From Armatimonadetes bacterium Uphvl-Ar2 (GTDB lineage: Bacteria; Armatimonadota; Fimbriimonadia; Fimbriimonadales; Fimbriimonadaceae), in assembly GCA_002162095.1 (NCBI GenBank), contig CP021424.1:310001-374000 (forward strand): 64,000 nucleotides of DNA, in the 5' to 3' direction. The position numbers and the translations under genes were made by a program. The notes below the pieces were generated by a model. That model did no database searches, was not told the origin of the DNA, and worked only from the letters and a program-made list of their open reading frames with translations. The first letter of the stretch is position 1, and each line of letters opens with the position of its first letter. Shown piece by piece: positions 14,560 through 27,194 of this stretch.

Positions 14560-16017
14560 GTGAACCAGAACGAACTCGACGAAATCATCTTGAAGGACAT
14601 CACGCGGCGGCACTTCTTCCGCATGACGTCGTACGGCATCGGCACCTTGGCGCTGGGTTCCCTGCTCAATCCGGCGGCCCTCGCCGCCCCGCCCGTGGCC
14701 ACCAATCCCTTTGCCGCGCGGGCGCCCCATTTTGCCCCCAAGGCCAAGCGCGTCATCTTCCTTTTCATGGCGGGGGCGCCTTCTCAGCTCGACCTGTTTG
14801 ACCCCAAGCCCAAGCTCAATCAGCACGACCGCGAACCCATCCCGGAAGAGATTATCGAGGGCGAACGCTTCGCCTTCATCAAGGGCACGCCCAAGCTCCT
14901 GGGGTCTCCGTATGAGTTCAAGCAGCACGGCCAAAGCGGCCACTGGATCAGTAGCCTGATGCCGCACACCGCCCGCGTGGCAGACGACCTGGCGTTCATC
15001 CACAGCGTGCAAACCGACCAGTTCAACCACGCCCCGGCGCAGATCTTCTTCAACACCGGGCACCAGCTCCCGGGCCGCCCGAGCATCGGCTCGTGGCTGC
15101 TCTACGGTCTCGGCACCGAGAGCCAAGACCTCCCCGGCTTTGTGGTGCTGGTGAGCGGGCAGAACAACCCCGATGGCGGCAAGGCCTGCTGGAGTAGCGG
15201 CTTCTTGCCCTCGCACTATCAGGGCGTGGAGTTCCGGAGCAAGGGCGACCCGGTGCTCTATGTCACCGACCCCGACGGCGTGGACCGCACCTCGCGCCGG
15301 CACATGCTGGATGCTCTGCGCGAGATGAATGCCCTCAAACTGAGCGACCACGGCGACCCCGAAATCGCCACCCGCATTGCCAGCTACGAGATGGCGTTCC
15401 GCATGCAAGCCAGCGTGCCCGAACTAACCGACCTAAGCGACGAATCGCCGGAAACCCACGCCATGTACGGCACCGAACCCGGCGCGGTGAGCTTTGCCAA
15501 CAACTGCCTGCTGGCACGGCGCATGGCCGAGCGCGGCTGCCGGTTCATTCAGCTTTACCATTGGGGGTGGGATAGCCACGGCACCAACCCCAGCGACGAC
15601 ATCATGACGAGCCTGCCCGAGCGTTGCCGGCAGGTGGACCAAGCCTGCGCGGCCCTGATTGCCGACCTGAAGCAGCGCGGCATGCTGGACGACACGCTGG
15701 TGATTTGGGGCGGCGAATTTGGCCGCACGCCCATGAATGAGGAGCGCGATGGCTCGACGTTCTTGGGCCGCGACCACCACCCGCGCGCGTTTACGATCTG
15801 GATGGCGGGGGGCGGCGTCAAGGCCGGACTCTCGCTGGGGCAAACCGACGAACTGGGCTACAACGTGGTGGAAGACCCTGTGCACGTGCACGATATCAAT
15901 GCGACGATCTTGCACCTGATGGGCATGAACCACGAGCGGCTGACCTACAACCACCTGGGGCGCGAGTTCCGCTTGACCGACGTGCACGGCCAGGTGATCG
16001 AAAAACTCATCGGGTAG
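14560..16017 (+). CDS. DUF1501 domain protein
   Basis: 485 residues, GTG start at 14560. TRRHFFRM near the N-terminus followed by a hydrophobic stretch looks like a Tat signal, as in other DUF1501 proteins. Alkaline-phosphatase-like features: [42 protein letters not shown] and [19 protein letters not shown]. Forms an operon with the PSC and PSD1 genes (15 and 22 base gaps). Its last 22 codons are duplicated at 21337, directly upstream of a second copy of the following tRNA. Confidence 0.95.
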
Positions 16018-16108
16018 CCTTCGGGTCCGTTCCCGGCCGTAGCTCAGTGGATAGAGCGCTTCCCTCCGGAGGAAGAAGTCGGAGGTTCGAGTCCTCTCGG
16101 CCGGGCCA
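15951..16108 (+). repeat. 158-base direct repeat, left copy
   Basis: Covers the last 22 codons of the DUF1501 gene, the 15-base spacer and the whole tRNA-Arg. Repeated at 21337-21494 with a single difference (T at 15973, C at 21359; both Leu codons). The two copies bracket the TetR-to-SDR cassette, so they mark the ends of an inserted or duplicated segment with a period of 5,386 bases. Confidence 0.97.
16033..16108 (+). tRNA. tRNA-Arg (anticodon CCG), copy 1
   Basis: 76 bases. Acceptor CCGGCCG / CGGCCGG, D stem GCTC/GAGC, anticodon stem CTTCC/GGAAG with loop CTCCGGA (anticodon CCG, reads CGG), T arm GGAGG-TTCGAGT-CCTCT, discriminator G and encoded CCA. Complete and apparently functional; an identical copy lies at 21419. 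Confidence 0.95.
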
Positions 16109-16119
16109 ACTTCTGCGAT

Positions 16120-16710
16120 CTAATCCTCGCTCGTCTCGGAACTTGGAACACTATGCCCGAGACGCGAAGCGAACAACGCTGACATCGATTCGGGAGTCGG
16201 CATGGCATCTCTGGGTACATGCGATAGAGCGTTTCCCTGAAGTAGCGAAACGAAGCCATGCAAGAGAGACCACAGTTCGACTGCGCGCCGGATAAGCTCA
16301 TGTTCATCGACAACAGGGTAGGCTGCCCGAGTGCCTTCCAGAAGGAGCGAGAAGGCATCGCGAGATGCCTCTTCAAACTCCAAGGCACCTTGAGCGATGA
16401 AATCGCATGGACCAAACATCAAGCGAACCATTTCCGGACTTCCCTGAGCGAATCGAATGTATGCGCGACTAAGACCTGGCACCGTCACACCCTCCTCTCG
16501 AATAATCTGGGCTAGCATTCGAAAACCCACGCTTGCCACGGCAGCCAAGAGCTCGTCCTTGTCAGAAAAATAGTGGTACGGGGCGTTATGACTCACGCCG
16601 CAACGCCTAGCGACCGCCCGGAGAGAGAGTAGCTGTTGCGTCTCAGACTCGAGCATTGCGACTGCCGTTGTTACGAGTTCCTCACGCAATGACCGGCCAT
16701 CTGAGTTCAT
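16120..16710 (-). CDS. TetR/AcrR-family transcriptional regulator
   Basis: 196 residues from the ATG at 16710. N-terminal helix-turn-helix: LRAVARRCGVSHNAPYHYFSDKDELLAAVA. The C-terminal ligand domain has WSLLHGFVSLL, as in the WHG-type TetR C-terminal domain. An ATG at 16737 would add nine residues, but the palindrome at 16713-16725 would then be inside the gene, so 16710 is preferred. Divergent from the cassette it most likely represses. Its 3' end lies 11 bases from the left tRNA copy. Confidence 0.9.
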   Translation of the reverse strand: MNSDGRSLREELVTTAVAMLESETQQLLSLRAVARRCGVSHNAPYHYFSDKDELLAAVASVGFRMLAQIIREEGVTVPGLSRAYIRFAQGSPEMVRLMFGPCDFIAQGALEFEEASRDAFSLLLEGTRAAYPVVDEHELIRRAVELWSLLHGFVSLLQGNALSHVPRDAMPTPESMSALFASRLGHSVPSSETSED

Positions 16711-16712
16711 TT

Positions 16713-16725
16713 TGTCATGATGACA
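16713..16725. promoter_or_regulatory. Palindrome, probable TetR operator O1
   Basis: TGTCATGATGACA, a perfect 13-base inverted repeat directly upstream of the regulator ATG. Shares the TGTCA/TGACA half-site with the palindrome at 16779-16793. Autorepression is the simplest reading. Confidence 0.6.
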
Positions 16726-16744
16726 TGATGACAGCAACAGTGAC

Positions 16745-16793
16745 TTGACAATGTCCGGCTTGAGGTGCTATCTTCTTACTTGACAGTGTCAAG
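16745..16793 (+). promoter_or_regulatory. Cassette promoter with overlapping operator O2
   Basis: TTGACA (16745-16750), 18-base spacer, TATCTT (16769-16774) form a plausible -35/-10 pair reading right. CTTGACAGTGTCAAG (16779-16793), a perfect 15-base palindrome, covers the expected transcription start. A repressor bound here would block the cassette operon. Confidence 0.6.
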
Positions 16794-17484
16794 CACGAGA
16801 GAATTTAACGTCCAGGACAGATACCGCACCGCCGGATGGCTGATGCTTGCGCAGGTTGCGCTGATCGCCATCCCGTTCTTGACCATGAGTGGAGCCACCG
16901 GATGGCCAGCTACTACCGGAGACCCGGGCTCAAAAATGCTTCCGCTCGTATTGGAGAATCTTACTTCAATTCGTATAGGATATGGCGGCTATCTTGCATA
17001 TTCACTCCTCTTCTTTTTCACTGGTTGTGCCGCGCTACGGGCAATTCGGGAGGAACCTGATTGGATTGGTCTTGGAGCAGTAGGCATCTCGACTCTTGCG
17101 CGATGTCTCGGCATTCTTCGCTGGCTTACTGCGGCACCATCTTTGGCGTACGCGTACTCCAACGCTGAAGATTCACAGCGAGCTCAAATTGCCGCCATTT
17201 TCGATGCCATCAATAGTTATGGCGGTGGAGTCGGCGAAGCTCTCGGCGTCAGCATCTTTGCGGCGATATGGGTTTACAGGATTGGAACTGCGGCCCGTCG
17301 TAACCCAATTGTGCCCGTTTTCCTCACTCGAATGACTTTCCTGTTGGCAGCTTTCATGTTGATTCCTGTCATCGAGCTATTCGGATTTGATCTTGGTCCG
17401 GTCCTCATGCTGACAGGCACTCTGTTCCACTTTTGGCTCATTGCGTTCGGGATCCTGATGGTTCGTCGAGGGAAATCATCATGA
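16786..17484 (+). CDS. DUF4386-like multi-pass membrane protein
   Basis: Hydrophobic protein with about six transmembrane segments; the pattern DRYRTAGWLMLAQVALIAIPF, RIGYGGYLAYSLLFF and LGISTLAR-type middle segments resembles DUF4386. The frame is open from GTG 16765, but that would lie upstream of the likely transcription start. GTG 16786 (inside the operator, giving 232 residues) or the ATG at 16843 are the alternatives; no good ribosome binding site decides it. Function unknown. First gene of the operon and overlapping the next by ATGA. Confidence 0.7.
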   Translation: MSSTREFNVQDRYRTAGWLMLAQVALIAIPFLTMSGATGWPATTGDPGSKMLPLVLENLTSIRIGYGGYLAYSLLFFFTGCAALRAIREEPDWIGLGAVGISTLARCLGILRWLTAAPSLAYAYSNAEDSQRAQIAAIFDAINSYGGGVGEALGVSIFAAIWVYRIGTAARRNPIVPVFLTRMTFLLAAFMLIPVIELFGFDLGPVLMLTGTLFHFWLIAFGILMVRRGKSS

Positions 17485-17885
17485 AATGCGTCGACAGCTC
17501 GATGATCGCTCGAGCCTACGGCATCGCCGCGACACCAAAGCGTCATACCCTCGCAGACCACCTAACTTTCCTGGGTCATGCACAGGCGGCAAATGCCATT
17601 CCGCCGGCCTGTAGTCTGAGTGCCCCGGGTAAGCTATTGAAGCTGGAAGGCCTCTTTCCATGTGTCACCGCCATCCTGGTTGCGGGGGCCGCCGTCTTTA
17701 AACTCGCTCAGCAACCGACAAGGATGATCGGGCTGCAGGCGCTTGGTTACCCACCGACGCTCGTGTGGATCCTCGGTCCCGCGAAGCTCGACGCGGTCGC
17801 CGCGCTGTTGCACGAGCATGCGATCTGCGGCATCCAGTGCATCGTGGACGTCGCTACCAAGCGCCGCCTGAAGAGGGTGCCATGA
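17481..17885 (+). CDS. Short DoxX-like membrane protein, probably degenerate
   Basis: 134 residues from the ATG at 17481 (ATGA overlap with the preceding gene). The middle, ILVAGAAVFKLA...GLQALGYPP..VWILGPAKLDAVAALL, looks like the first two helices of the DoxX-like family. The usual following helices are missing and the protein ends in a basic tail (TKRRLKRV). Internal deletion or frameshift is likely. It still overlaps the next gene by ATGA, so coupling is kept. Confidence 0.5.
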   Translation: MKCVDSSMIARAYGIAATPKRHTLADHLTFLGHAQAANAIPPACSLSAPGKLLKLEGLFPCVTAILVAGAAVFKLAQQPTRMIGLQALGYPPTLVWILGPAKLDAVAALLHEHAICGIQCIVDVATKRRLKRVP

Positions 17886-18511
17886 AGCTCGCCCTCTTCG
17901 GTGCAACCGGCCTCACGGGTGGACTCGTGCTCGCTCAGGCGCTTGAGCAAGGCCACGAGGTCACTGTGCTGGTTCGTGATCCGAGCCGAGTATCGCTTAG
18001 CCATCCGCGGCTTACCGTTCTTGGAGGAAGTCCCATAAAGCCGGACGATGTCGAGCGCTGCGTTAGCGCCGCTGAGGTCGTCATCCATTGCCTTGGCATC
18101 GGCGGCAGGGGCGACGGTAAGTCCACCACGCTCATATCTGACTCCGTTAATGTCGTCCTAAAGTCAATGATGAACCAAGGCGTTCCACGCATCGTGTGTA
18201 TGTCGAATGTCGGGGCTGGCGGTAGCGGGACGTGGTTCGCGAACCGCATCGTGCTCCCGCTCTTCATCCGGTGGCTACTGCCGATCATTGAAGACAAGGA
18301 CCGTATGGAGGCCGCGCTCCGTGCGAGCTCCGTCGAGTGGGTGTCCGTACGCTTGCCAAACATCGTGGAAGGCCCGGAGAAGCCGCTGCGAATCAGCAAT
18401 GATGGCCGAGGCATCGGCCTATCGATCACCGCCTCGTCAACTGCTCGCTTTCTTCTGCAACAGGTCAGTTCGCCCGAGTGGATCCGCTCGGCCCCAAGCA
18501 TCAGTAACTGA
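17882..18511 (+). CDS. NAD(P)-binding protein, NmrA/atypical SDR type
   Basis: 209 residues. Starts MKLALFGATGLTGG, the GxxGxxG dinucleotide motif of atypical SDRs, followed by VTVLVRDPSR and VIHCLGIGG. EDKDRMEAALRASSVEWVSVRLPNIVEGP is the usual late segment. Probably a small reductase or NADPH sensor. GC-rich like the hydrolase after it. Confidence 0.85.
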   Translation: MKLALFGATGLTGGLVLAQALEQGHEVTVLVRDPSRVSLSHPRLTVLGGSPIKPDDVERCVSAAEVVIHCLGIGGRGDGKSTTLISDSVNVVLKSMMNQGVPRIVCMSNVGAGGSGTWFANRIVLPLFIRWLLPIIEDKDRMEAALRASSVEWVSVRLPNIVEGPEKPLRISNDGRGIGLSITASSTARFLLQQVSSPEWIRSAPSISN

Positions 18512-18520
18512 GGTTCACAC

Positions 18521-19342
18521 ATGAGAACCCCAGCACATCTCCGCCGAATCTCGACCCGCGTCGGCACCCTTGCGTTCGTCGATGAAGGTGCGGGGACGCC
18601 GGTCGTACTGTGGCCATCACTGTTCAGCGACCACCGCTTGTACGCGCCCCTGATGCCCATGCTTAGCAAAGATTGGCGTACGATCCGCATCGACGGCCCC
18701 GGCTTCGGTCAGAGCGATGCGCCACGCGGCGACGTACAGCCGGACGTCTATGCCGAGGCCGTAGTCGACCTGCTCGATGCGCTCGGCCTTGAACAGGTCT
18801 TCTTCGCCGGCTGCTCCTGGGGCGGCCAGATCGCCGCGCACATCGGAGTGAAGGCGCCGGACCGTGTGCGCGGCGTACTGATGATGAACGCGCCTCTCGG
18901 ACCGAGCCTCGGCGGACATTCGTTCGAGGTGTGGGGAACGCTGTGGCTCGGTTCAACCAAGTTCTGGGGCCGCGGCGTCGCGCGCTCGATGTTCTCTCCC
19001 GCGTCGCGGCAGACGTATCCCGAGCGGTTCGAGGCCTTCGCCTCCGCGTTCACGAGCTTCGACAAGGCCGCGGCCGCTGTCACCGCGCGTACCGTGCTAA
19101 CCCGATTCGCAGGGCTCGGCGAGGTGCTGCCACGTCTCGCGGTGCCAACCACGATCCTAGTTGGAGCCGAAGACCGGCTTTACCCAGTGGAGAGCATGCG
19201 TCCGTTCGCGGCGCTTGCGCCGAACTCGACTTTCCAGGTCGTCCCGTCTTGCGGACACCTGGCGCCACTCGAAGCGCCCGAAGCAGTCGTCGCGGCGCTC
19301 AAAGGACTAGCTGAAGGCATGGTACAAAGGGGAACAGCATGA
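18521..19342 (+). CDS. Alpha/beta-fold hydrolase
   Basis: 273 residues. Nucleophile elbow GCSWGG with Ser99, acid in GAEDRLYP and His in CGHLAPLE complete the triad. LWPSLFSDHRLY carries the oxyanion region and RIDGPGFGQSD the strand before the elbow. Substrate unknown; the neighbours suggest a small-molecule degradation or detoxification route. Strongly GC-rich (42 of 60 in 18781-18840). Overlaps the MDR gene by ATGA. Confidence 0.9.
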   Translation: MRTPAHLRRISTRVGTLAFVDEGAGTPVVLWPSLFSDHRLYAPLMPMLSKDWRTIRIDGPGFGQSDAPRGDVQPDVYAEAVVDLLDALGLEQVFFAGCSWGGQIAAHIGVKAPDRVRGVLMMNAPLGPSLGGHSFEVWGTLWLGSTKFWGRGVARSMFSPASRQTYPERFEAFASAFTSFDKAAAAVTARTVLTRFAGLGEVLPRLAVPTTILVGAEDRLYPVESMRPFAALAPNSTFQVVPSCGHLAPLEAPEAVVAALKGLAEGMVQRGTA

Positions 19343-20430
19343 GAGAGGTTGCGATCGCGAAGAATCGTGTTGCCATGCTAAAGACATTCGGCGGGGCCGA
19401 ATCCATCGAGGTCCTCACTGTTGATATTCCTAATCCATCGCGAAATCAAGTGCTAATCCAGGTTGAGTCATCCAGCCTTGTCTTTACGGATCTTCTAATC
19501 CGCAGAAATATGTATCCGATGTTGCGAAAGAAGCCTCCCTTTGTGCTCGGATACTCCTTTGTGGGCCATGTAATTGCAGTAGGCTTGGGAGTCACCACCG
19601 TCCAGCCTGGTGAACGAGTCGCAGACCTCACTCAAACGGGTTCAAACGCTGACTATGTTCTCAGAAGTCCAGACACCTTGGTCCGAGTACCGAAAACTCT
19701 GGACGCTGCCGAAGCCGAAACTTTAGTCTTGAGCGGCATGACCGCGTATCAGGCCCTTACCCGTTATCGAACAATGGAGCGAGGTCAGAGGGTTCTTATC
19801 ACAGGTGCAGCTGGAGCAGTAGGTCATCTTGCTGGGCAACTTTGCACAGAAATGGGGCTTACGTGGTACGGCACTTGCTCGATGCCACAACGCCCCGCCA
19901 TAGAGTCGTCAGGGGGAACGCCCATTGTCTACGATTCCCAGGAAGGTACTGCACAACTCGAACTTGAATCTAAAAATGGCTTTGACCTCATCCTTGATCT
20001 CTCTGGCGCAGACCCTCCAAGAACCTCACGACGTAGACTTAGGGAAGGTGGAGTCTTGGTGCTTCTAGGTATGCGAGCACTGTGGCATCGAGATGCGGCT
20101 GATCGGAATACCCATCTGCGAGACAAACTCTCCATTCTTAAGCACTTCTTCACAGGTATGCTACTTAAAGTTCGACAGCCACGCACAATCGCAATCTATA
20201 GTATCGCAGATCGAAAACGCGAGAAACCAGGCGAATTCAGAGAAGATCTGTCCTCCCTTTATAGGATACTTGAAGCAGGCAAGTTAAAGCCAAAGATTGC
20301 CGAGAGAATTGAACTCGAGGAAATCCGCAGGGGGCATGAGAGGCTTGAACGTGAGAAACTTCAAGGTCGCCTTGTTATTGTTCATGCGAAGCATAACTCG
20401 CAAGTACACGCACCGAGTCAAGATCATTAA
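19339..20430 (+). CDS. Zinc-independent medium-chain dehydrogenase/reductase (quinone-oxidoreductase type)
   Basis: 363 residues. GroES-like N-terminus (SLVFTDLLIRRNMYP, VLGYSFVGHVIAVG), Rossmann motif ITGAAGAVGHLAGQ, and LVLSGMTAYQAL typical of NADPH-dependent quinone/enone reductases (VAT1-like). No structural-zinc Cys cluster is seen. Base use is clearly poorer in G+C (27 of 60 in 20161-20220) than in the hydrolase it overlaps, so the cassette is a mosaic. Confidence 0.88.
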   Translation: MREVAIAKNRVAMLKTFGGAESIEVLTVDIPNPSRNQVLIQVESSSLVFTDLLIRRNMYPMLRKKPPFVLGYSFVGHVIAVGLGVTTVQPGERVADLTQTGSNADYVLRSPDTLVRVPKTLDAAEAETLVLSGMTAYQALTRYRTMERGQRVLITGAAGAVGHLAGQLCTEMGLTWYGTCSMPQRPAIESSGGTPIVYDSQEGTAQLELESKNGFDLILDLSGADPPRTSRRRLREGGVLVLLGMRALWHRDAADRNTHLRDKLSILKHFFTGMLLKVRQPRTIAIYSIADRKREKPGEFREDLSSLYRILEAGKLKPKIAERIELEEIRRGHERLEREKLQGRLVIVHAKHNSQVHAPSQDH

Positions 20431-21270
20431 ATGACTACACATCCAAAATCAACTCACTTGTCAACTGATAACACTGGAAGTTCATTGCAAACAGTGTTTG
20501 CCGTTGTAACCGGAGCATCGCAAGGTATCGGACGAAGCATAGCACTTGAGTTCGCAAGGCGCGGCATCGTGCCCATCCTTATCGCACGTGACGAAAAAAA
20601 CCTTGCCGCCGTCGCCAGCGAGATCCTCGATACATACAAGCTTGAACCTGTAACCATGAGTGCCGATTTGAGTGACCGTGCGTCGGTCAATCACTTGCTC
20701 GCGCAGTTTGAGGCTTTTCCGGGTCGCATAGAGTATGCAGTGAATAATGCTGGATTCGGCGACACCACACCGTTTATTGACTGCGACCCTTCCTCTCTTG
20801 ACGAGATGATCGAACTCAACGTGCGCGCCGTTGTCAGGATTACTCACTTCTTTTCTAACCGATTCCGGTCACAGGGTTCGGGTCGGGTGATGAATGTATC
20901 TTCAACCGCAGCCTTTCAACCAACCCCCTATTTCGCCCTGTATGGCTCTTCAAAGTCAATGATCCTGAATCTCGATCAAGCAATCAATGAAGAACTTCTC
21001 GGGACGGGGGTTCATGTCTGTACCCTTTGTCCAGGCCCGACGGCAACGCCATTCCACGCCCGTGCCTCGTCCGATCGCTCGCTACTCTCTAGGATTACAA
21101 TGTTGGACGCAGACAAGGTCGCCATAGCCGGAGTATCAGGCATGTTGCGTGGAAAGAGGCTCATCGTACCAGGCTTAACAAACCAGCTTCTTCGGCTGTT
21201 GGTTCGGCTGTCACCAAGTGCCGTATTGCCAAAGGTTTCGGCAATCCTAATGCGGCCACGTGAATCCTAA
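20431..21270 (+). CDS. Classical short-chain dehydrogenase/reductase
   Basis: 279 residues. TGASQGIG cofactor motif at 28-34, NNAG at 105-108, catalytic Ser157/158, Tyr171 and Lys175 (YGSSK). CPGPTATPF follows as usual. Starts directly after the MDR stop. Last gene of the cassette; the right repeat copy begins 66 bases later. Substrate unknown. Confidence 0.9.
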   Translation: MTTHPKSTHLSTDNTGSSLQTVFAVVTGASQGIGRSIALEFARRGIVPILIARDEKNLAAVASEILDTYKLEPVTMSADLSDRASVNHLLAQFEAFPGRIEYAVNNAGFGDTTPFIDCDPSSLDEMIELNVRAVVRITHFFSNRFRSQGSGRVMNVSSTAAFQPTPYFALYGSSKSMILNLDQAINEELLGTGVHVCTLCPGPTATPFHARASSDRSLLSRITMLDADKVAIAGVSGMLRGKRLIVPGLTNQLLRLLVRLSPSAVLPKVSAILMRPRES

Positions 21271-21336
21271 TCTCTTGATCGTACTGAGCATTGGCTTGAC
21301 TCTTCATTGCGCGCCCCACGTCGAACCGACCAACAC

Positions 21337-21494
21337 CCACCTGGGGCGCGAGTTCCGCCTGACCGACGTGCACGGCCAGGTGATCGAAAAACTCATCGGG
21401 TAGCCTTCGGGTCCGTTCCCGGCCGTAGCTCAGTGGATAGAGCGCTTCCCTCCGGAGGAAGAAGTCGGAGGTTCGAGTCCTCTCGGCCGGGCCA
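21337..21494 (+). repeat. 158-base direct repeat, right copy
   Basis: Second copy of 15951-16108, one mismatch. Its left part is a fragment of the DUF1501 gene: 22 in-frame codons and stop with no gene body in front. This shows that the copy was carried in or made by recombination. Confidence 0.97.
21419..21494 (+). tRNA. tRNA-Arg (anticodon CCG), copy 2
   Basis: Identical in all 76 bases to the tRNA at 16033, including CCA. The upstream 82 bases are also copied, so if the promoter lies within the duplicated stretch both genes are expressed. The flanking bases differ from copy 1 directly after the CCA. Confidence 0.95.
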
Positions 21495-21519: not shown

Positions 21520-24500
21520 CTAAGAATAATATCCCCGTAGCTTTAACAACCTAGGTGACACTCGAAAAAATGCGTAGCCAAGGATCAAAAACAAAAATAC
21601 GGCGACTGAACGGAATAGCGTTTGAGTTGATTTTGTTCCGATACGCGACTCCAACTCTACAAACCTACCGTTGATACCAAGCAATTTAACTCTAGCCCGC
21701 TCATTTTTTATCACGAGCTTAGAGCCGTCGCGATCCACTCCTTCCCCGATAGGAATCAATGGCAAAGCCCCAAGCTCAACTACTCCCTCAATGCCCGTCA
21801 CTTCTCCTCGACCAGTCTCAGACACGCTTTCCATCTCGTTATCGCTTCTTTGCTTGCTAACAATGGCCCCAACATCACCTTCCGAACCCCTATAATCAGA
21901 AGACAACATTGCAACATTAACAAGAAACAATGACATGAGCAACACTACAACTCGTCCAGATCGCATGCCTTGACCCATCAGTAAGTAACCTGGAATCTGC
22001 GCTAAAGCCGTGAACCGACCAAAGTTTCGTGTGATATCTCGAGCTAGCCAGTGCAACGCAATACGGTCAGCCAAAACATGGTCACCCCGCTCTCTAGATT
22101 GCTGCTCCATTTGACTGTATGTGGCTTCGTTATGACTACAACTCGAAAGAAACAAGACCTTCGCAACCATCTTCTGACCCTGGTAACGAAAGCAAGTCCG
22201 AATTGCGCCCCAAGACAGATTCAGTACACTATTCCCTACTAGCGCTGGCTCGACTAAACGTGACCTCCAAATCCTAAAGACAACGCTAATAGTCAACGCC
22301 AAACAGTAAAACACTCCAAGCGTAAAAAGTGTACTACCTAACCCGACGCTTCCACCAAGCTCTACATGCTTGGCAAACAGTGAGAGCCCGGCGAAATACA
22401 ATGACAATAGGAACATTGAGCTGCATAAAACACTACACATATGGTCAACGCTAAGCAAGCCTGCGTGCCCCGCGGGGCGTGTTCCGATAGCAAGAAAGTG
22501 ATAGCCGCGCGAAATCGGTTCAAGTATCTTACCCTGTTTAAGTCCAGCACCTTCATAGTGACTTACCGTCGGAAGCACGAACTCCACCTCAGTTCCTCCG
22601 CATCTAACATCACTTACTTGAAATAACTCGTCAGAACCAAACTTTACACGCCTCGTTTGCATTTGACTCCAACCTACTACTCCTATAACAACCATAAGAA
22701 AAGCGACAGCGAGACTATCTGCTACAGGGCTCTCATTATCAAAAATACCTGAGAATTGCACAGCAACACACAATACAAACACACAAAACCACAGAAGTAG
22801 CGTAACTACTGCCTGGCTCCAAGCCCTGTCCAGCCTCTCCCATTCAGGTACTCCGGATAAACCTGGCAAGTACCCGATCTTTCCTGCTGGCCTATCTACA
22901 AGTGCTAGCGCAGGCCAATTCATTTCACATCGCTGGCGTGACTTTGGCTCACCACCTAGACAATCATCAGTTAAGACAATTAATCTCATGGCGCCAGCAA
23001 TAGTCGCATTATCCATGACTAACAGAAACTCTTTGTCTATAAGATCCCTATCCTTAGTGCCAGTAAATCGCCGAAGCCCCTCACATCGGAACGAAACACG
23101 GTCGAGTTCCAAATCACCCTGGATACTTGAATGCGGTAATCTCAAAACAAAGCTGACCTTCTTTCGCCGTCCAGGGCTAAGTACTGTCCTCGATACTATC
23201 GGATTCGCCTCATCAAACGGACCAGCTTGTACGGACCCGCCAACTGACGTACCGCTCCCACTCCAACCAGAACACAAAACCGCCCCCTGCAAGTGAATAT
23301 GACCACCAATGCGTGCACCAGGGGTAAAAAGTGACGCCTCCGAAGAGTTGTCTCCCCGAATGCCCAACTGCCGCCCAGCTCCCAAACCAGGGCCAATTCC
23401 AGTGAAAGTTGAACCCTGAAAGGCGGTTCGTGGCTGAAACCGCTGAAGCAACACGTCACCGCCTACCTTAGTGTGACCCGCATAGATACCGCAACGGATA
23501 ATGGCACCTCTGCAATCTAGGCTTCCAAAAATCTGTGAATTTGTAAGGATTATACTGAAAGCACCAACGAGCGTATCTTGGGCCGGGCCAACAAAACATG
23601 ATACGTACCGCTCATCCTCTGTACCGTATGCCGGCAAGTAATCGTCATCAGCATCTTCAGCACGGCTACCAGATCTATCAAGCGACCCAAGTCCCAGAAA
23701 GCCCTCTAAGATTGCGGACTCACATAGCACTCCACCTTCAAGAAATGCCCCCCTGAAGTCGGCATCCCCTTTGATCCTGACGCCGCTCAGATGCAATGAG
23801 GCACGCTCGTGCTTTCCCCAAAAGCCCTGTCCAACATAGGTCCTTCTCTCCGAAGTGCCTTCCGCGGATTCGACCCAAGTTGAAATTCCTGACACATCTC
23901 CTTCTACCTTCGAATTCTGGAGATCAATTCCATTTGACAAGAATGCGCCGCTGAAAATTACATCACCACCAACTTCAGCCGCCGAGAGTCGCAGACTGTA
24001 AATATGCCGACTTGGTCCGGTGGCTGATCCAATAATCGTGCGATTGCACTCATCTCCAGCTAAATAGACGCTACCTCCTATGGACGCCCCCATTAGATTT
24101 ACTCCGGACTTCATATGGGCACCGCTAACTTGGAAAGATTTGCCGACAACCAAATTATCCGCATGTATACTAACTGCGAACTGCGGAGATTGCACCTTCA
24201 TAGCACCAATATATGTTGGATAGTATCTCGACGAGTTAGTGTTGATTAGATTTGAGATGTGTTCTGGATGGGGCTTTGATGATGCATCAAATTTGCCTGT
24301 AATTGATGCGCCGGTTAAGCGGATGCCATCAAAAAGTCTCGCCCCTGATAAGATAAGGTCTCCCAAAATGCTTGAGGAATCCAGCTGGACCTGCCCCCTG
24401 ATTTCAGTGATGCCACATTTAATCGGAGTCTTTTGCCACATTGATTTTGCCTGACAACCAACGAAGGAAGAGAATCCATGGAGATGCCCTGAAGTCCGAT

Positions 24501-25866
24501 TGCCGATTTTAAAGTGCGTGGAGCTAGCCATCTGGTTCTCGTCGAACAGATCACTGTACGCTTCCGTGCTTTTTGGATACATTAACTCAGACCTTAGAGT
24601 TATTCCGGAATCACTTTGTTCGGTCTTCCGCCATTGTATCGTAAATTCGGGGGTGTACCCACAGCTCCCTTTTTGCATACCATTCCAATGCAACACATAA
24701 CCTTGCTCTAAGTTTCCCAGGGCATGCAAGTGGTCATCTTGAAGAGCGTGGATCACAGAACGATCAAGAGCCGAAATCCTTTTGGAGGCGTTAAGTGTTG
24801 CTTGCATGTCTGGTGACATTGACAGTTGGCGAATGTTGTGAGATTCGGCTTCGTCGCCGATCGCTTTTTGCCACTCGGGCTTTCGATTGTACAGTCCGAA
24901 CGTTAATACGTAGGATTCGCGGTATAGTGCTACACGAACCCGCAACACTTCAGACAGTTCAAAATTGAACACTCCGTCGCATCCTTCAACCGGTTTAGAC
25001 GATAAGTCCAGACCGCCAAGACTTGAAAACCGAGCATCAAGTTGATTTAGTATTATAGTGCCTTGCAGGAGCACGCCGCCTTTGACTTCTGATCGAGTAA
25101 GCCATAGCCCACCAACAATTTTTGTAGGGCTAAGTGTATCAGGTTGAGTAGTTTTTGGAATCGTGTTCTGATTTGTTGATGAATCTGCTGATAGTGGATC
25201 AGCATCTCGTGAGCCAGGTTGCCACACCTGCGCACTAAACATGCCACCGATCTTGGCGTTTGAAAAGATTGCCCTTTTGTTCACAGTAACGCCTCTCAAA
25301 AGGACATCACCTTGAACCTCCAATCCATGCGCGTCCAAATCGCCATTCAGAACTGAATGCAGTACGTCTGTGCTGGTATCTTGTGTCATGCGCCTGCGGA
25401 GTTTTAGTGAGCCACCAATCCTGACTTGAACGAGCCCCAGTCGATCACACTTTATCCCATCCAGTTCGATGGATGATGTTACTTGTGTATCAGTGAGGTC
25501 TACTAATCCCCAGGTACTTAGGCCTTTTTGCTTACTTTTATACGACCTACGAATTCGCAGTCCTCCTTCAATATGCGCACTCCTCATCTTAAATTTTGAC
25601 TGAATCGGCTCGAGTTTGTTGTTCTCTTCAAGTTCTGTTTCTGGCCAGGAATCTTGTAAATTACAATCAACAAATGTGACGGTGCCCAGGCAGTGACAAG
25701 CAGTCATATCAACACGAGTGAAAGATATGCCGTCAATTCGTAAGTCGCCAGTGATGATACAGCCAGGCAGGTTTAGTTCGAATGCGCGCTCCTTCGTCAG
25801 CAGTGAAGTTATATCCTCTGGCCGGAGAAGCTCTCCCTTCTTCTCAATTGTTACGGGGCGGCTCAT
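21520..25866 (-). CDS. Very long repeat protein with C-terminal membrane segments, unknown function
   Basis: 1,448 residues from the ATG at 25866; the frame is open to 25968 and earlier starts are possible. About residues 35-950 are made of degenerate repeats of the type hydrophobic-x-gA-x-I-x-G-x-hydrophobic (for example ILGDLILSGARLFDGIRLTG, GGDVIFSGAFLSNGIDLQN, KGDADFRGAFLEGGVLCES). They suggest a right-handed beta-helix, roughly like pentapeptide-repeat or so-called membrane-associated oxidoreductase proteins. C-terminal hydrophobic segments lie near 1020-1040, 1050-1066, 1143-1164, 1177-1198, 1304-1322 and 1417-1434. No signal peptide or catalytic motif was recognised. AT-richer than its surroundings (26 of 60 G/C in 22681-22740), so it is probably foreign. 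It ends 25 bases from the right tRNA copy. Confidence 0.8.
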   Translation of the reverse strand: MSRPVTIEKKGELLRPEDITSLLTKERAFELNLPGCIITGDLRIDGISFTRVDMTACHCLGTVTFVDCNLQDSWPETELEENNKLEPIQSKFKMRSAHIEGGLRIRRSYKSKQKGLSTWGLVDLTDTQVTSSIELDGIKCDRLGLVQVRIGGSLKLRRRMTQDTSTDVLHSVLNGDLDAHGLEVQGDVLLRGVTVNKRAIFSNAKIGGMFSAQVWQPGSRDADPLSADSSTNQNTIPKTTQPDTLSPTKIVGGLWLTRSEVKGGVLLQGTIILNQLDARFSSLGGLDLSSKPVEGCDGVFNFELSEVLRVRVALYRESYVLTFGLYNRKPEWQKAIGDEAESHNIRQLSMSPDMQATLNASKRISALDRSVIHALQDDHLHALGNLEQGYVLHWNGMQKGSCGYTPEFTIQWRKTEQSDSGITLRSELMYPKSTEAYSDLFDENQMASSTHFKIGNRTSGHLHGFSSFVGCQAKSMWQKTPIKCGITEIRGQVQLDSSSILGDLILSGARLFDGIRLTGASITGKFDASSKPHPEHISNLINTNSSRYYPTYIGAMKVQSPQFAVSIHADNLVVGKSFQVSGAHMKSGVNLMGASIGGSVYLAGDECNRTIIGSATGPSRHIYSLRLSAAEVGGDVIFSGAFLSNGIDLQNSKVEGDVSGISTWVESAEGTSERRTYVGQGFWGKHERASLHLSGVRIKGDADFRGAFLEGGVLCESAILEGFLGLGSLDRSGSRAEDADDDYLPAYGTEDERYVSCFVGPAQDTLVGAFSIILTNSQIFGSLDCRGAIIRCGIYAGHTKVGGDVLLQRFQPRTAFQGSTFTGIGPGLGAGRQLGIRGDNSSEASLFTPGARIGGHIHLQGAVLCSGWSGSGTSVGGSVQAGPFDEANPIVSRTVLSPGRRKKVSFVLRLPHSSIQGDLELDRVSFRCEGLRRFTGTKDRDLIDKEFLLVMDNATIAGAMRLIVLTDDCLGGEPKSRQRCEMNWPALALVDRPAGKIGYLPGLSGVPEWERLDRAWSQAVVTLLLWFCVFVLCVAVQFSGIFDNESPVADSLAVAFLMVVIGVVGWSQMQTRRVKFGSDELFQVSDVRCGGTEVEFVLPTVSHYEGAGLKQGKILEPISRGYHFLAIGTRPAGHAGLLSVDHMCSVLCSSMFLLSLYFAGLSLFAKHVELGGSVGLGSTLFTLGVFYCLALTISVVFRIWRSRLVEPALVGNSVLNLSWGAIRTCFRYQGQKMVAKVLFLSSCSHNEATYSQMEQQSRERGDHVLADRIALHWLARDITRNFGRFTALAQIPGYLLMGQGMRSGRVVVLLMSLFLVNVAMLSSDYRGSEGDVGAIVSKQRSDNEMESVSETGRGEVTGIEGVVELGALPLIPIGEGVDRDGSKLVIKNERARVKLLGINGRFVELESRIGTKSTQTLFRSVAVFLFLILGYAFFRVSPRLLKLRGYYS

Positions 25867-26000
25867 AATCTCGGAAGGTACTCGGATTGCAACCGCTTTG
25901 GCAAGTATCCGCCGGCTATTTGCGATTCCCATTCCATGTGGTCTCTGCATCAGGCCCACTTGGCGCAATCCCGATGCCCCACCTCGCGTAGGCTCAGGAG

Positions 26001-27194
26001 ATGGCCCTTGCCGCTGCCCTAACTAGCCTGCGTGAGAACTGGCGACAGTCCATTCTCAGCGCGGTGGGCGTCGCCATCGCCAGCATCGCCATCCTCCTCC
26101 TGGTCAGCATCGGCCTCGGCGTGCAAAAGGACATCTCCGCCCAGGTCGAAGACCTCGGCGTCAACATCCTCATCGTGCTCCCCGCCCGCGTCGAACTGGG
26201 CAGCATGAACTTCAACCCCAATTTCGGCGGCCAGAGCTTCCTCAGCCCGGAAGACGCCAACCGCATCGCCACCATCCCCGGCGTCCGCGAAACCGCCATG
26301 CTCACCTTCGCCGGCGGGGGCCTCAAGGTCGGCGAGAAATCCGCCTACCCCCTCACCATCGCCGCCACCCCGGCCTGGTTTGCCATGCACGACGCCAAGA
26401 TCGCGGAGGGTCAGTTCTTCAGCACCACCAGCGACGTCAAGAACCCGATCGTCCTCGGCGCCATCGCCAAGGACACCCTCTTTGGCACCGAAGAAGCTCT
26501 CGGCAAAAAGGTGCGCCTGAACGACGAGGAGTTCGAGGTCGTGGGCATCCTCAAGGATGAAGGCGACAGCGAGAGCATGTTCAGCATGCAGTCCTTCGCC
26601 AACGTGGCCTACGTTCCCTTCGATACCTGGAAGGCGAACCACCCGGACGCGCAGATCGACCGGATCATGGTGCAGTTCGACCCCGCCACGGACCCCAAAA
26701 CATTGGTCCCCGCCCTCGAAAAAACTCTCGGCGAACGGCTGGACTACCAGCAGTACAGCGTGCTGACCCAAGAGGACCTGCTCGGCCTCATCTATAAGGT
26801 GATGGGCATCCTGGGCACCCTGGTGGTCGGCCTCACCAGCATCGCCCTCTTTGTGGGCGGCGTCGGCATCATGACGGTCATGCTTATGTCCGTCAACGAG
26901 CGCCGCGTCGAAATCGGCATCCGCCAGGCCTGCGGCGCCACCCGCAAAGATATCTTCCGGCAGTTCCTCATCGAGGCCGTGCTCATCGGTCTCGCGGGGT
27001 CGTTCGCGGGGCTGGTCGTCAGCGCCCTCGTCAACTCTGTGCTCGCTGCCACTACCAGCATCAAGCCGCTCATGACATGGGGCACCGTGGCGCTGGCGTT
27101 CGGGGTGGGCGTCGGGGTGGGCGCGATCTTCGGGGCGTGGCCGGCGCGTCGAGCGGCCAACCAAGATCCGGTCGTTAGCCTAAGAAACCTCTAA
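26001..27194 (+). CDS. MacB/FtsX-type ABC transporter permease
   Basis: 397 residues: N-terminal transmembrane segment (SILSAVGVAIASIAILLLV), a periplasmic MacB-like core domain (about 45-260), then three C-terminal segments with ALFVGGVGIMTVMLMSVNERRVEIGIRQACGATRKDI, the hallmark of this permease family. No ATPase gene is next to it. The upstream side is the low-GC gene, so its partner may have been separated by the insertion. The AGGAG touches the ATG, so the real start may be slightly different. Confidence 0.92.
   Translation: MALAAALTSLRENWRQSILSAVGVAIASIAILLLVSIGLGVQKDISAQVEDLGVNILIVLPARVELGSMNFNPNFGGQSFLSPEDANRIATIPGVRETAMLTFAGGGLKVGEKSAYPLTIAATPAWFAMHDAKIAEGQFFSTTSDVKNPIVLGAIAKDTLFGTEEALGKKVRLNDEEFEVVGILKDEGDSESMFSMQSFANVAYVPFDTWKANHPDAQIDRIMVQFDPATDPKTLVPALEKTLGERLDYQQYSVLTQEDLLGLIYKVMGILGTLVVGLTSIALFVGGVGIMTVMLMSVNERRVEIGIRQACGATRKDIFRQFLIEAVLIGLAGSFAGLVVSALVNSVLAATTSIKPLMTWGTVALAFGVGVGVGAIFGAWPARRAANQDPVVSLRNL

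Follow-up and report, generated by a model that had tools for sequence, protein, structure and literature searches.

Does a very large protein built mostly of short hydrophobic repeats represent an orphan, or is it an enlarged member of a family that is already in the databases under other names? The question is raised by a gene in a 64,000-nucleotide stretch of DNA (hereafter the window; forward-strand positions 310,001 to 374,000 of contig CP021424.1, GenBank assembly GCA_002162095.1) that forms part of the complete, 2.63-Mb genome of Armatimonadetes bacterium Uphvl-Ar2 (G000). A first-pass annotation, made from the letters of the window, had described the product as repeats followed by a membrane domain, had recognised no domain that would give it a function, and had speculated that a beta-helix stalk might serve as an adhesin-like, shielding or anti-phage sensor protein. 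Here, we find that the giant protein belongs to a widespread family in which a beta-helix is joined by a linker to a transmembrane (TM) hairpin, that it is a lineage-specific form of that family, and that its gene has been transferred. Tentatively, we favor a role in which the beta-helix, predicted to be cytosolic, is a rod for docking or sensing whose signal passes through the hairpin.

Architecture and family of the giant protein

The gene runs on the minus strand from an ATG at 25866 to a stop at 21520 (1,448 codons, zero internal stops). An upstream extension of the open reading frame (ORF) to a TTG at 25968 exists but is not conserved, and the G001 counterpart (from a sister genome, Chthonomonas sp. 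UBA2785, Armatimonadota) aligns with the window protein from the same Met-Ser onward. The first-pass description of repeats followed by hydrophobic segments is borne out: the ORF is real and intact, there are six strong hydrophobic segments, and the repeats exceed chance. Residues 1-960 contain 14 copies of the motif [IV]xGx[LVFI]x[LAVFI]x[GRSN], whereas 5,000 shuffles averaged 0.34 and never exceeded 3. Autocorrelation of hydrophobicity has its top peak at 11 residues, with the next at 5, 16 and 22, and the repeat unit is therefore a 22-residue coil of two 11-residue halves (AxIxGxLxLxG and AxLxxGIxLxG), with loops interrupting the coils. The 35-40 residues that the first-pass annotation gave for its pairs of units correspond only to the distance from coil to coil where certain loops intervene.

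Nor is the protein devoid of a recognizable domain, as had been stated. Its repeats match Pentapeptide_3 (PF13576) above the curated Pfam cutoff (scores in Table 1), as do those of seven out of seven aligned homologues (best 3e-30), and its C-terminus belongs to the widespread family described below. The strict five-residue period of a 20-residue coil is missing from the window protein, which has a period of 11/22 residues and shows peaks at 5 and 6; because of this variant coil period, we file it as a non-canonical pentapeptide variant.

A 990-residue AlphaFold2 model, built on a two-sequence alignment, contains a confident beta-helix over most of residues 1-215, where the predicted local distance difference test (pLDDT) is mostly 70-90 outside loops at residues ~70-90, 160-168 and 217-245; the helix coils are weaker beyond residue 215, and the remainder past ~290 is too low in confidence. 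With VIA-align, residues 1-327 superpose on many solved right-handed beta-helices (Z 14-17; best example Z 16.9, root-mean-square deviation 2.9 A over 237 residues); as far as the model can tell, these matches reflect the generic right-handed beta-helix fold only and no function. The structural check that had been proposed for this protein thus came out in part: residues 1 to ~290 do model as a right-handed beta-helix, whereas Foldseek, queried with the 990-residue model, returned nothing below E 0.001. Sequence searches of solved structures gave no match. The part best conserved between the sister species is residues 485-1000, with up to 76% amino acid identity to G001 in 150-residue windows.

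The predicted membrane domain also stands, at residues 1019-1435. Hydropathy places six strong segments at residues ~1019-1039, 1046-1067, 1146-1166, 1174-1197, 1305-1324 and 1417-1435, and a seventh, weaker hydrophobic window at ~947, within the repeats; it reveals no hydrophobic N-terminus or signal peptide in the window protein. Positive and negative residues (K+R/D+E) number 14/7 in the linker after segment 4 and 3/0 after segment 6, and the short loops 1-2 and 3-4 carry zero positive charges. Because of this loop-charge pattern and the lack of a signal peptide, the repeats are predicted to be cytosolic (N-in/C-in), and the repeat rod most likely lies inside the cell.

Used alone, the window protein retrieved no relatives from the genome contigs searched, and an alignment of it with the G001 homologue retrieved only G001; the viral contigs searched held no relatives, and neither did the plasmids when the window protein itself was the query. 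Plasmid relatives surfaced only with the G013 protein, for which tblastn returned shorter proteins in Streptomyces, Rhizobium, Microvirga and Roseomonas; a second round from one plasmid relative added Shinella, Acaryochloris, Rhodococcus and Nonomuraea. Short forms also occur within the order of the window genome (G037, G004, G105, G026, G033). The short plasmid relatives share coils of the type 'GARITGRLDL', the linker 'PYEQLA..YR..GH..EAR.VL', the motif 'TVGYGYRP' and two TM segments around 'YALDLLLPI..FGQ', and are annotated as 'hypothetical' (for instance in Shinella and Rhizobium), 'pentapeptide repeat' or, in Streptomyces, 'membrane-associated oxidoreductase' and 'oxidoreductase'. The relatives scanned against Pfam contain no enzyme domain, which leaves the oxidoreductase name unsupported. 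Two short relatives, in G033 and G135, have apparent hydrophobic stretches at the N-terminus; judged by eye, these look like extensions that precede the conserved start 'LTPSEKQ/LPSEAS'.

The giant form, of 1,439-1,640 amino acids and with about four extra TM segments in most members, is present in seven of the 113 genomes of the order (G000, G001, G019, G093, G013, G079 and, as a contig-edge fragment, G076) and in no further genome among the 291 of the phylum. The C-termini of giant and short forms align in profile-profile comparison: five giant against 14 short sequences gave a probability of 93.6% in hhalign (88 columns, score 53.1, against at most 18.0 in shuffles), five against nine gave 90.4% (score 40.1 over the 167 columns of the whole hairpin; best of 200 column shuffles 8.4), and a separate profile comparison gave 47% (E 0.0002) in the same register. 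The eighth match of the giant-family profile in the order, a 558-residue protein of G033, is matched by giant-family and short-family profiles alike and bridges the two. Whereas short members have ~480-800 residues and exactly two TM segments, the window protein has 1,448 and six; from these comparisons we conclude that the giant form is an enlarged version of the short family, with more coils, insertions and four extra TM segments before the linker (Table 1). No study of the family, and no member with known function, was found in the literature.

Two observations on the relatives may be recorded here. On Acaryochloris plasmid pMB04 (L071), a short relative is divided between two neighboring ORFs, with a Trypco1 gene immediately upstream. 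Proteins with repeated 'W..DPRC.V......R...GW.PERA' segments, for which Pfam returned no family over its cutoff, lie within a few kilobases of the giant copy in G013 (L012:2805-4124) and of the short copy in G033 (L082:1111-1935).

Table 1. The giant gene, the parts of its product and the borders of its site, in window coordinates
Feature	Coordinates	Strand	Basis
Giant repeat/membrane protein gene	21520..25866	-	ORF intact, 1,448 amino acids; PF13576 36.9-37.2 bits, cutoff 27
N-terminal beta-helix block, residues 1-290, 22-residue coils	24997..25866	-	AlphaFold2, strand pattern, VIA-align
Non-repetitive insertion, residues 291-484 (~190 residues)	24415..24996	-	pLDDT < 50 throughout
Second beta-helix block, long inter-coil loops, residues 485-1000	22867..24414	-	repeat motifs; moderate to low pLDDT
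Extra TM segments 1-4, residues 1019-1197, absent from short family	22276..22812	-	hydropathy, loop charges
Conserved linker, predicted cytosolic, residues 1240-1304: YSQMEQQSRERGDHVLADRIALHW ... LLMGQGMRSG	21955..22149	-	profile-profile match to short-family linker
C-terminal TM hairpin (TM5, 92-residue loop, TM6), residues 1305-1435	21562..21954	-	hydropathy, profile-profile match
tRNA-Arg (CCG), second copy; left border of the giant gene's site	21419..21494	+	
MacB-like ABC transporter permease; right border of site	26001..27194	+	beside tRNA-Arg in G001, G002, G008, G011

Transfer of the gene at the tRNA-Arg/MacB site

The stop codon of the giant gene lies 25 bp from tRNA-Arg(CCG) and its start 134 bases from the divergent MacB-like permease gene, the G001 orthologue of which carries Pfam MacB_PCD and FtsX. 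The first-pass annotation had taken low G+C as a sign of transfer, and this is upheld by the composition of the gene (0.479, or 0.441 at third codon positions, vs 0.617 in the window when the 16-26 kb region is excluded) and, more directly, by comparison with the same site in G001: the flanks are 93-97% identical in nucleotides right up to the gene, and the gene is 49% identical in protein. At fourfold-degenerate sites the sisters differ by 72% in the giant gene, which is saturation, and by 11-28% in its neighbors. In a control pair, G019 and G093, the corresponding differences are 11% and 2-14%. We asked whether rapid positive selection could account for the 49% identity and rejected this, since the fourfold sites are saturated in the one pair and not in the other; selection at the protein level is unable to saturate silent sites, and at least one allele has therefore been replaced by a long-diverged one. 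In the control pair the giant protein is 89% identical, most neighbors 98-99% and an adjacent 188-residue protein 88%, from which it follows that the giant family also evolves fairly fast. Sequence comparison thus supports the view that the giant gene was horizontally acquired or replaced by transfer.

The MacB-like gene itself is 87% identical in protein between the sisters and differs at 28% of fourfold sites, vs 98-99% and 11-20% for the other neighbors, as if the allele replacement had reached into it. In G001, G002, G008 and G011, too, tRNA-Arg(CCG) is found close to the MacB gene. In the congener G002, ~735 bases separate them, without the giant gene, and the interval holds a gene resembling potassium channels of the TMEM175 family (PF06736; L037:2690-3295). 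A PIF1-like helicase gene occupies the interval in G008 (L038:2648-4036; identified by Pfam) and G011 (L039:2399-3748; by sequence likeness), so that its content varies across the family. Signs of site-specific integration were not seen, either as a repeat of the tRNA 3' end at the right border (by eye) or as an integrase among the nearby listed ORFs.

Next to the giant gene lies a 5.4-kb cassette (16109-21494) with genes for a TetR regulator and DUF4386, DoxX-like, NAD-binding, hydrolase, ADH-like and SDR proteins. Flanking it is a direct repeat of 167 bp (15942-16108 and 21328-21494; 3 mismatches), which carries a complete tRNA-Arg(CCG) and the 3' end of a gene that we take to be DUF1501-like. 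No integrase was seen among the ORFs, and the arrangement suggests that the cassette was inserted by homologous recombination and not by integration at a tRNA end. G001 has the giant gene and lacks the cassette; the two are therefore separate insertions at one site.

Possible roles of the protein

Our reading of the protein is as follows. A helix of 22-residue pentapeptide-type coils, predicted to be cytosolic, is anchored, via the conserved helical linker, to the C-terminal TM hairpin. In the lineage of the window genome, the helix has grown to ~950 residues (with insertions) and four TM segments have been added; horizontal transfer placed the gene beside tRNA-Arg(CCG), and the allele was later exchanged in at least one sister species. 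The rod may offer an intracellular docking or sensing surface to a large partner, and the linker ('Y.Q....R..GD..AD' - 'G.G.R') could pass the binding signal on to the hairpin, where it might alter the state of the membrane or the assembly of membrane proteins.

Several points weigh against this scheme. The topology comes from hydropathy and charge, and the loop between TM5 and TM6 is highly charged. AlphaFold2 failed on the membrane part (mean pLDDT 35.7), leaving a model too poor for structure search, and the PF13576 matches are short and scattered. The link between giant and short forms is confined to linker and hairpin, and its signal is absent with the window and G001 sequences alone; the claim of homology therefore rests on the family profile.

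Of the other explanations, the adhesin-like or shielding stalk of the first-pass annotation is the least probable. The protein is not a new kind of external adhesin stalk: it lacks the signal peptide of a secreted adhesin or autotransporter, its repeats are not predicted to form an extracytoplasmic passenger, its membrane domain is C-terminal and its charges predict N-in/C-in, its relatives begin directly with repeats, residues 1-1010 contain 18 cysteines, and the linker ahead of the first TM segment in the short relatives is strongly basic. Although the beta-helix fold is common to many secreted proteins, we regard an external adhesin-like or shielding stalk as very improbable. A membrane-anchored beta-helix could instead position envelope or cell-junction proteins. 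For such an envelope-organizing scaffold there is a precedent in HglK of heterocyst-forming cyanobacteria, which combines TM spans with pentapeptide repeats (PMC8145042). In several genomes, an ABC permease or a vWA gene also stands beside the giant gene. However, no neighbor is conserved, the domain order is unlike that of HglK, and the patchy, transferred distribution is unlike that of a core envelope factor, and we consider this role doubtful.

It is also conceivable, though on balance unlikely, that the gene encodes a single-gene effector of conflict with phages or plasmids, in which the cytosolic rod would sense a component of the invader and the hairpin, perhaps helped by the four added segments, would open a pore in the membrane or disrupt it. 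A variable tRNA-adjacent site, patchy spread and allele replacement would fit such an effector, and pentapeptide repeats have been described as scaffolding modules in conflict systems (PMC7159879). When the neighbors of homologues were inspected for defense genes, as had been proposed, some defense- or mobility-like genes were found: a NERD-UvrD helicase (PADLOC 2.4e-64) at a distance of 4.8 kb from the giant gene of G013; an MzaA-like protein, an M78 peptidase and an IS110 transposase near that of G079; HD-CE and a weak nuclease-like match near the G033 short protein; and Trypco1 and caspase-like/ATPase genes beside the Acaryochloris plasmid relative. Against this, no defense gene adjoins the giant gene in the window, G001, G019 or G093; the neighbors of the plasmid relatives are inconsistent, and the defense-like ones are raw occurrences without a background rate. 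The window protein matches no PADLOC family (up to E = 10), no NCBIfam and no PHROG significantly, and no pore family was detected (Pfam finds no Ion_trans_2, PF07885, in giant or short members, and the solved channel MthK appears only at E = 3.2). The anti-phage sensor proposed in the first-pass annotation is thus a possible reading that finds nothing in its support in the window or in PADLOC. A more specific version, which we think improbable, would make the protein a membrane immune effector complete in itself: a long cytosolic beta-helix would sense the invader and open or assemble its own C-terminal hairpin (of six segments in the giant form), divergent and exchangeable alleles would have spread at the tRNA-adjacent site, and the short relatives on mobile plasmids would be the same class of effector, widespread and mis-annotated.

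We prefer the docking or sensing rod because defense neighbors are absent at G000, G001, G019 and G093, and those seen elsewhere are scattered and lack a background rate. Whatever its partner, an apparently orphan giant protein gains a family, and a class annotated as 'membrane-associated oxidoreductase' turns out to be a beta-helix on a membrane hairpin with no visible enzyme domain. Saturated allele divergence at one site in sister species marks a gene exchanged between populations, as is typical of interaction and conflict genes.

Comparison with known proteins

The giant protein is most like the short proteins of repeats and TM hairpin, with which it shares 22-residue coils (GA.ITG.LDL...), the helical linker 'YEQLA..YR..GH..EAR.V', 'VGYGYRP' and the C-terminal hairpin. 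The short proteins, of 480-800 residues and with two TM segments, carry the motif 'YALD.LLP...FGQ', whereas the giant form is longer and its motif degenerate ('VELGALPLIPIGE' in the window protein). With the pentapeptide superfamily (PF13576; MfpA, Qnr, AlbG) it shares a right-handed beta-helix of short hydrophobic repeats. The canonical pentapeptide coil has 20 residues, made of four pentapeptides (PMC8145042). MfpA, Qnr and AlbG are small and soluble, in contrast to the window protein with its 22-residue coils, long insertions and membrane domain. HglK of Anabaena/Nostoc, with four predicted TM spans and pentapeptide repeats, affects glycolipid localization and septal junctions (PMC8145042). 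Compared by description, it resembles the giant protein in joining pentapeptide repeats to several TM segments, and differs in having 36 repeats of the AxLxx type. In HglK the TM part precedes the repeats, the reverse of the order in the giant protein.

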